From Stigmatella aurantiaca DW4/3-1 (GTDB lineage: Bacteria > Myxococcota > Myxococcia > Myxococcales > Myxococcaceae): a stretch of 64,000 bases of DNA. A program made the position numbers and the translations under genes. The stretch spans positions 3,057,501-3,121,500 of the forward strand of contig NC_014623.1 of the NCBI RefSeq assembly GCF_000165485.1. The letters run 5' to 3'. The notes beneath the pieces were generated by a model. That model made no database searches, had not been told where the DNA came from, and saw nothing but the letters and a program-made list of their open reading frames with translations. Shown piece by piece: positions 39,489 through 41,527 of this stretch (positions are counted from its first letter, which is position 1; each line of letters starts with the position of its first letter).

Positions 39489-40178
39489 TCAGACGTCGTG
39501 GAAGGAGAGGGCCTTGTCGACGCTCTCCCGGTTGAGGGGCTTGTTGAGGTCGAGGGGCCAGCCGACGTCCTCGACGGGGGGCTTGGGCGGGCGCTCTGCG
39601 GGGGTGCTGCTGTTGGGCAGGCCGTGCTGCTTCTCCACGCGTCCCAGTCGCTGGTGCTGCTCCTTCACGGAGCCTTCCAGCGCGCGGACGGCGTCGGTGA
39701 GCTTCGTCAGGCCTTCCATGACGCCGGAGGAGGCGTCGGGGCTCGGCGCGGGCGGAGCCGGCTGAGGAGCCGGCGCGGGATTGGCGGCCTTGGTGCGCGC
39801 CTCGACCTCGTCCTCGGAGTCGTCTTCGTCCTCTTCCAGGGCGTCGGCGAGCGCGCGCAGGTGCTGGGCCACCTCCACCACGCGCACGCCATCGATGCCG
39901 TCCGTGGAGGTCAACGCCTCGACGAGTGCCGTCACCGCTTCGAGGGCCTGTTGGGCTGCGGCGAGGAGGGCGTCATCGGCCTTGGAGGTGTCCGAGGCGG
40001 CGCGGTTGTCGCCCTCGGCCTGCGAGATGTCCTGGGGAGCGTCGTGCATGGTGTCTCCGTCTCGCTTCACCAAGAGGAAGCGGTGCTTGTTGGCGGCCCT
40101 GTCCACGAGGGACACCTCCTCCACCACCATGTCGACGAGGCGGTGGACGGAGGCGGGACCTTGGGTGGTGCTCGTCAT
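39489..40178 (-). CDS. Scaffold-like / second XkdF-region protein
   Basis: 229 aa. Opening [20 protein letters not shown] followed by [11 protein letters not shown] is the sequence that usually follows the XkdF protease domain in one chain; here it is a separate gene overlapping the upstream stop by four bases. The remainder is Ala/Glu-rich helix ([20 protein letters not shown]), an acidic stretch ([13 protein letters not shown]) and a coiled segment ([20 protein letters not shown]), as in capsid scaffolds. Likely cleaved during head assembly. Confidence 0.65.
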
Positions 40179-41527
40179 GTGGCCTCCGGCTGGGAGTCAG
40201 CGGCAGGTGTGTCGGAAGGGGGCGGCTCGGTGGCGGGGGAGGCCTCGGGGAGACGGCGCGCGGTGCCGCCAATGCTGAAGCCCGTCAGTTGCCCGTCCTT
40301 CACACGCCCCCAGAGCTCGTCGGAGAGGACGCGCACCGCGAAGAGCCAGGTGCCCTTGCGCACCGGCACCTCGCCCAGGTTGAAGTCGACGGGAGCGAGG
40401 TAGCTCTCCAGCACCTTGACGTGCCCGTTGACGCGCATCTGGTGCATGAGGCCCAGGCCGCCGAACTCCTCCATGAAGCGGTGCGCGGCCTGGCGAATCT
40501 CCGCGGCGGAGTAGAGGTCGCCCTGCGCGTCCACCGTCTCCGGCTCCAGGACGACACCCAGGACGTACCGCTCGTCGTCGGGCTCGACGCCCTTGAGGAG
40601 GGACGTCGTGGTGGCGAAGGGAGCGGTGCCGGGCGGCTCCTCCGGCTTCCAGTCGTCCACGGCGAAGTCGCCGTCCCCTTCCAGCGCCTTCGCGGCGGGA
40701 TGGTAGTTGCTGACGAGGAGCTGCGTCAGCACGGAGGAGCCGCCCACGCCGCGCATAGCCGCAATCGTGCGAGGCGTGCGAATGCGCTTCACCACGAAGC
40801 CGGAGTCCTTCAGCATCCCGGGCAACTTCCCCCGGATGCCATACGTCATGAGCCAGCGACCCTTGAGTGACTTGAGGACGCCGTAGAAGCGCTCCTCGTC
40901 GAAGTCACCCTCGCCGACGTCGACGTTGTAGCCAGGGTACGGAGGGTCGAGAAAGAGGACGGTGTCCTTCCCGTCGTACTTGCGGACCACCTTCTCGTAG
41001 TCGCCGCCGTACACCTTCACGCGCTTGAGGCGCGGGGCGTGCTGCTCGATGCGGGCGAGCGTCTTCGCCTCGACGCCCATGCCGTTGGGGCTGACGCTGC
41101 GACCGCGCAGCTTCCCGTAGGAGAAGTGCGTCAGGTAGAGGAAGCGGTGCAGGCGCTCCACGTCCCCCTTCGGCTTGGAGTCGAAGAGGCTCTTGAAGGT
41201 CTTCTCGTCGCCGACCCACGGCAGCTTCTTCAGCTTGGCGAGGCCCGCGGGCGTCAGCTTCTGGATGAGCCGGTACGCGTCGGCGATTTCGGGGTCCGCG
41301 TCGTTGATGGCCTCGACGTCCGAGGGGGCCTTCTCGAAGAGGACGGCGGCGCTCCCGGCGAAGGGCTCCACGTACGTCTTGTGCGCGGGCAGCATTGCCA
41401 CCAGTCGCTTCGCCAGGCGCTTCTTGCCCGCTGGGCTCCCCCAGATGGTCTTCTCCACCGGCTCACCCTGGAGGGACTCCAGGACGTGCCGCGCCCGGGC
41501 AAGGGCCTTTGAGAGGGCGTCACCCAT
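40175..41527 (-). CDS. DNA adenine methylase fused to XkdF-like prohead protease
   Basis: 450 aa from the ATG at 41527. Residues 25-275: D12-class adenine methyltransferase, with [17 protein letters not shown] (50-66; AdoMet-binding FxGS) and catalytic [11 protein letters not shown] (191-201), and MTYGIRG. Residues about 305-425: [60 protein letters not shown], the Peptidase_S78_2/XkdF pattern. There is no frame break or stop between the parts. The protease would process scaffold and capsid; the methylase would modify DNA. Joining them in a head-operon protein suggests the methylase is carried into or released from the prohead. Fusion role is inferred. Confidence 0.85.

Follow-up and report, generated by a model that had tools for sequence, protein, structure and literature searches.

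The window, as we call the whole stretch of 64,000 nucleotides analysed here, comes from Stigmatella aurantiaca DW4/3-1 (NC_014623.1, positions 3,057,501 to 3,121,500), whose 10.26-Mb genome is assembled in one contig. Its minus strand carries phage head genes, among them a gene (P0001) in which a DNA adenine methylase domain is followed by a prohead protease domain. The features discussed below are, in window coordinates:

43099-45390, minus: portal protein frame, with the portal match starting near frame residue 304 (context)
41761-43041, minus: MuF-like minor head protein (context)
40175-41527, minus: methylase-protease fusion gene P0001, 450 aa (uninterrupted reading frame, Pfam, conservation)
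40682-41455, minus: D12/Dam-fold N6-adenine methylase domain, residues 25-282 (PF02086, Dam fold, dN/dS)
41351-41368, minus: methylase motif I, EPFAGS, residues 54-59 (sequence motif, homologue alignment)
40937-40948, minus: methylase motif IV, DPPY, residues 194-197 (sequence motif, homologue alignment)
40583-40681, minus: linker, residues 283-315, candidate cleavage region (dN/dS 0.53, no methionine)
40253-40582, minus: XkdF (Peptidase_S78_2) prohead protease domain, residues 316-425 (PF14550, invariant residues, dN/dS)
40442-40444 and 40274-40276, minus: protease catalytic residues His362 and Ser418, conserved along with Asp333
39489-40178, minus: next gene, P0002, leader plus acidic scaffold-like region, overlapping the fusion gene by 4 nt
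40059-40148, minus: leader segment of P0002, [29 protein letters not shown], of the kind that precedes the protease in Bacillus XkdF
38503-39443, minus: major capsid gene, in two frames (context)

The fusion gene starts with an ATG at 41527, its stop codon ends at 40175, and the frame contains no internal stop. Pfam finds two domains in the product and no others: PF02086 (MethyltransfD12; residues 34-199, E 1.5e-16, 61.4 bits against a cut-off of 22) and PF14550 (Peptidase_S78_2/XkdF; residues 317-425, E 9.8e-30, 103.6 bits against a cut-off of 24). The initial annotation had read the methylase and an XkdF-type protease as a single continuous 450-aa frame in the head operon; the uninterrupted frame, the strong PF14550 match in the C-terminal half and the portal, MuF, scaffold and capsid neighbours bear this out. 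The two objections it anticipated, a hidden stop or internal start that would split the gene into two separate proteins and a protease part lacking the catalytic Ser/His pair, both fall away because the frame is single and constrained, with a linker devoid of methionine, and the catalytic residues are kept.

A second copy of the fusion is present in the same genome (96% identity), full-length matches of 73-98% identity occur in many genomes of the phylum, and 34 viral contigs match the fusion, most of them over both domains. The same fusion is thus found in other phages, where the initial annotation had proposed to look for it, namely in dozens of myxobacterial prophages and in environmental phages (locus counts are redundant across collections unless stated to be dereplicated). 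In 28 homologues with 51-74% identity to the window protein, EPFxGS, DPPY, Asp333, Asp337, His362 and Ser418 show no or almost no variation. Pooled Nei-Gojobori estimates over 23 close copies gave the lowest dN/dS for the protease (0.077), followed by the methylase (0.15) and the linker (0.53). Both domains are, by these estimates, under purifying selection and the linker is loosely constrained; in the close copies the linker contains no methionine and scattered valines only.

The AlphaFold2 model of the methylase has a confident Dam fold, with Z-scores of 22.8 to 7m6b, 21.7 to E. coli Dam and 20.1 to DpnM. Fold and motifs are shared with the Dam-type D12 methyltransferases (E. coli Dam, DpnM, T4 Dam), from which the window enzyme differs in being fused to a head protease and in scoring below the cut-off of the NCBIfam Dam subfamily model, TIGR00571 (66.5 bits against 114.85). 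Because of this score, we assign the methylase to the D12 class with a Dam fold and do not file it as Dam proper. It is a Dam-type adenine methylase in which the catalytic residues are retained, and methylation activity is predicted.

Structure prediction of both domains, a check put forward in the initial annotation, gave a clear answer for the methylase and a moderate one for the window protease, which was modelled at a pLDDT of about 50-78 only; the two domains appear as separate units. The protease fold was judged on a Bacillus homologue, modelled with its leader. VIA-align ranked T4 gp21 first (Z 8.6), followed by the HCMV protease (Z 4.2) and the rest at 3.2 or below. The T4 gp21 match covers model residues 19-157, starting past the leader; Foldseek by itself found nothing significant in the PDB for this protease model (best E 0.34). 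On this model the XkdF protease has a prohead protease fold, and proteolysis of head proteins is predicted. The window domain belongs to the same family as the XkdF/Peptidase_S78_2 proteases of PBSX-like, Lactococcus and Bacillus phages, with the same catalytic residues, and like them it adjoins portal, scaffold and capsid genes. The arrangement differs: the known XkdF proteases have leader, protease and scaffold in one chain, whereas in the window cargo and protease form one chain and leader and scaffold follow as the next gene.

This next gene, P0002, had been taken for a second part of XkdF encoded by a separate overlapping gene. It is indeed separate and overlapping, but a second protease part can be rejected: Pfam detects no PF14550 domain in it, and its similarity to the XkdF family profile phrog_3017 is confined to the N-terminal ~45 residues. 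The N-terminal leader, printed as [27 protein letters not shown], is the sole part that it has in common with the family. A similar leader precedes the protease within one chain in Bacillus XkdF, where the model of leader plus protease shows it as a strand (residues 3-16; pLDDT 88 for the first ten residues and 75 for the next ten). With cargo defined as an N-terminal extension of at least 150 aa, and without dereplication, the leader lies in the next gene at 166 of 189 cargo-bearing proteases and in the same chain at none; the other loci run off the contig end (5/189) or have no detectable leader nearby (18/189). At 80 loci without cargo, leader and protease share a chain. We infer that the two layouts, leader-protease-scaffold on the one hand and cargo-protease plus leader-scaffold on the other, are probably rearrangements of one another. 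As a hypothesis, we suggest that the cargo-protease may be anchored to the scaffold by way of the leader.

A scan for the protease domain showed that it usually closes long frames with differing N-terminal parts, and it is nearly always terminal, with a median of 13 residues behind it. Among distinct protease sequences, 48 chains carry one D12 methylase, 21 carry two and 6 carry three, and 25 have other cargo, with no D12 methylase. Most methylase paralogues can be placed in one of three groups, which stand in a mostly fixed order before the protease, the window protein being of the middle type, and methylase and protease divergence correlate (r 0.65, a value reached in none of 999 permutations). 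Other cargo includes an ATP-dependent DNA ligase with KWNG and GSEGAMLK motifs (the active-site lysine lies in KWNG in three of five sequences compared and in KYNG or KLNG in the other two), and InPase; LigD_N-like matches remain below the cut-off. A further arrangement combines three methylases, ligase and protease in one chain, and gp18 of the cultured Arthrobacter phage Salgado joins a 2H phosphoesterase to the XkdF protease. Another relative, of 1491 aa (L146:1153-5625), carries four methylase stretches, followed by a Tad3-like domain at residues 1238-1306 and finally the protease. Tad3 is an inhibitor of type I Thoeris. The match is above the Pfam cut-off (34.6 against 27 bits) and the identification is Pfam's, because comparison of the region with solved structures gave no convincing match. 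The N-terminal cargo of six further loci (L094, L104, L125, L134, L155 and L160; ~390-600 aa) has no PHROG and no clear Pfam match, and these regions are candidate new counter-defence domains. On one contig (G102:C57), a second frame of 2140 aa with three methylase stretches (L067:5414-11833) accompanies a 2175-aa protein; it reaches the contig end, and no protease part is present up to that point.

The fusion in the window is therefore one member of a broad modular family, as judged from these sequences, and not a single oddity. The cargo enzymes would be expected to serve early infection or counter-defence rather than head building. A C-terminal protease behind variable cargo apparently constitutes a larger architecture that has so far gone undescribed; our literature search, which lay outside most subscription journals and any dedicated bioRxiv collection, found no description of such a fusion.

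Plain XkdF proteases are named 'DNA methyltransferase' in many phage records. Proteins of Lactococcus 28201, PPSC2, RHph_Y1_11, JG004 and NoPa were considered as further fusions and rejected, as they have PF14550 only and no methylase domain. The loci concerned (L085, which is JG004, L076, L077, L078 and L084) are annotated 'DNA methyltransferase' or 'putative methyltransferase'. PHROG 1530, itself named 'DNA methyltransferase', was matched through the protease only in every protein scanned. JG004 gp61, which has PF14550 only, is listed as a 99% match to ORF48 of phage PaP1 (PMC4177049). ORF48 had been called a putative methyltransferase from BLAST matches that include Stigmatella and Myxococcus proteins, two of them from Stigmatella aurantiaca DW4/3-1 (117 residues at 32%), and the authors voiced doubt about it (PMC4177049). 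The methyltransferase names on plain XkdF proteases are most simply explained by transfer from fusions of the kind described here, and PaP1 ORF48, discussed in a methylome paper, appears to be an XkdF protease named after them. The record can be corrected for several phage 'DNA methyltransferases', PaP1 ORF48 among them.

Fragments on either side of the fusion recur 101.6-103.3 kb away. Two Mx-alpha-like prophage copies lie ~102 kb apart at 3.08-3.22 Mb (G000:C1), 89-96% alike where compared. The spaced repeats around the fusion recall the successive Mx alpha prophages known in M. xanthus (PMC6070905), the particles of which have been described as heads some 35 nm across that lack a tail (PMC6070905). 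A 2-nt change that creates CTC TTA (38841-38846, minus) splits the major capsid gene in every close Mx-alpha-like copy; in remoter relatives the gene occupies one frame. The downstream capsid frame has 15, 4 and 50 variable sites at codon positions 1, 2 and 3 among 17 distinct sequences, a third-position bias. TTA occurs once among 6,202 codons in the long GC3-rich frames of the window, and this one codon is that of the capsid CTC TTA site; no tRNA gene was found in the 64-kb window. In the tail sheath gene, 7 copies shift frame by +1 at CTT TTA (32835-32840, minus) or at a one-base variant of this site; the gene stays in frame in 5 further close copies, among them the second one of the same genome. 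In both genes, slippage at the rare TTA would give back the ancestral protein, which suggests programmed or hungry-codon frameshifting as a candidate explanation for the splits; the alternative is recent decay. Since capsid and tail sheath genes are both split, the prophage copy in the window may need recoding or be defective. Similarly, given the tail-less Mx alpha heads and the capsid gene in two frames, the window copy may not form ordinary virions.

Protein functions are derived from sequence throughout, and on this basis we propose that the fusion protein is virion cargo that carries its own loading and release module, a reading to which we assign a probability of about 0.6. The protease domain would carry the fusion into the growing prohead along with the scaffold, possibly docked on the leader strand of the scaffold protein. 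At maturation the protease would cut the scaffold and the loose linker, so that the methylase becomes free inside the head. The freed methylase would then be packed with the genome, enter the next cell alongside the phage DNA, and modify adenines of the incoming DNA, or of its first replicated copies, before restriction enzymes act. We infer each of these steps, from loading with the scaffold through linker cleavage, packaging and injection to methylation of the incoming DNA. The initial annotation had already raised packaging and release by cleavage, and the idea is strengthened because relatives place DNA ligase, InPase, Tad3 and 2H phosphoesterase in the same slot. Longer relatives combine methylases of different subfamilies with a ligase or an inhibitor of immune signalling, and therefore fit a stock of early counter-defence enzymes. 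Counting against the proposal are the 18 cargo loci that lack a leader nearby, the T4 gp21 match that begins past the leader, and the tail-less Mx alpha heads and two-frame capsid gene described above.

The methylase might instead act in the producing cell: made late and located at the prohead or packaging site, it would methylate the phage DNA ahead of packaging or in its course, so that virions would be protected on exit with nothing being injected. The head operon is expressed late and a fusion would tie the methylase to that expression; this reading also accounts for the methylase-only fusions, the commonest class, and separate phage-coded Dam-type methylase genes are common. Yet a standalone late methylase gene would suffice for the purpose, and this reading leaves unexplained why DNA ligase, InPase, 2H and Tad3-like domains occupy that slot too, since these would more naturally work in the next cell. 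We consider it unlikely. The probability is lower again that the fusion merely couples expression, with early cleavage after which the methylase would work in the cytoplasm and the protease within the prohead, functionally unconnected. The loose linker (dN/dS 0.53) and the modelling of the two domains as separate units agree with such a coupling, but different enzymes repeatedly occupy the same slot before a C-terminal protease and the leader is always outside the cargo-protease chain, both of which point to a functional link.

A further possibility is that the methylase domain has lost catalysis and now has a DNA-binding or structural role in the head core. Its motif I reads EPFAGSAAV and does not have the usual FxGxG ending. 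The retention of EPFxGS and DPPY in the 28 homologues and in paralogous copies, and the dN/dS of the methylase (0.15), argue against this loss, which we regard as the most improbable of these explanations.

Among known concepts, the nearest to this proposal is that of the polyvalent proteins of phages and conjugative elements, which combine unrelated enzymatic domains in one chain and have been proposed to be packaged and injected (Iyer et al., 2017, PMC5512222). Both are multi-enzyme chains encoded among virion genes, and N6A methylase, InPase and 2H domains are common to both (PMC5512222). Polyvalent proteins are recognized by at least two disparate enzymatic domains per polypeptide, by location among virion late genes and by domains from the published network: the window protein has a methylase and a protease (relatives have more), its neighbours are portal, MuF, scaffold and capsid genes, and N6A methylase, InPase and 2H occur within the family. 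The releasing peptidase differs: for polyvalent proteins it is proposed to be a zincin-like MPTase, whereas the family in the window has a C-terminal XkdF serine protease of prohead maturation; by term search, 'prohead' appears in that article just in a reference title and 'HK97' is absent (PMC5512222). Phage P1 offers a second parallel, as its DarA, DarB and Hdf are head-packed anti-restriction proteins, one of them with a methylase domain (PMC9024508, PMC12810830); P1 packs DarB in the head and, it is believed, passes it into the cell (PMC9024508). This 250-kDa methylase-helicase has an N-terminal targeting signal and is separate from the prohead protease (PMC9024508, PMC12810830). In the window protein, by contrast, cargo and protease belong to one polypeptide, and no helicase accompanies the methylase, the SWI2/SNF2 domain of DarB-like proteins being absent by Pfam. 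If the cargo-loading reading is true, these fusions would form a class of polyvalent proteins with a packaging logic of its own.

The variety of cargo in the relatives suggests a general way to load counter-defence proteins into virus particles. In its full form, the proposal is that XkdF proteases at large are cargo loaders: the C-terminal protease, attached to the scaffold by a leader strand supplied in trans, would carry modular N-terminal trains of counter-defence enzymes into the head and free them inside, and the virion would deliver them; we put this forward tentatively, at somewhat less than even odds. Phages must counter restriction and signalling immunity right after injection, and to our knowledge how they load early counter-defence enzymes is known for few phages only. 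N-terminal domains without matches that stand before an XkdF protease are now flagged as counter-defence candidates. Here a widespread architecture ties the load to the prohead protease itself, which opens loading, release and delivery to experiment in a phage that is in culture.
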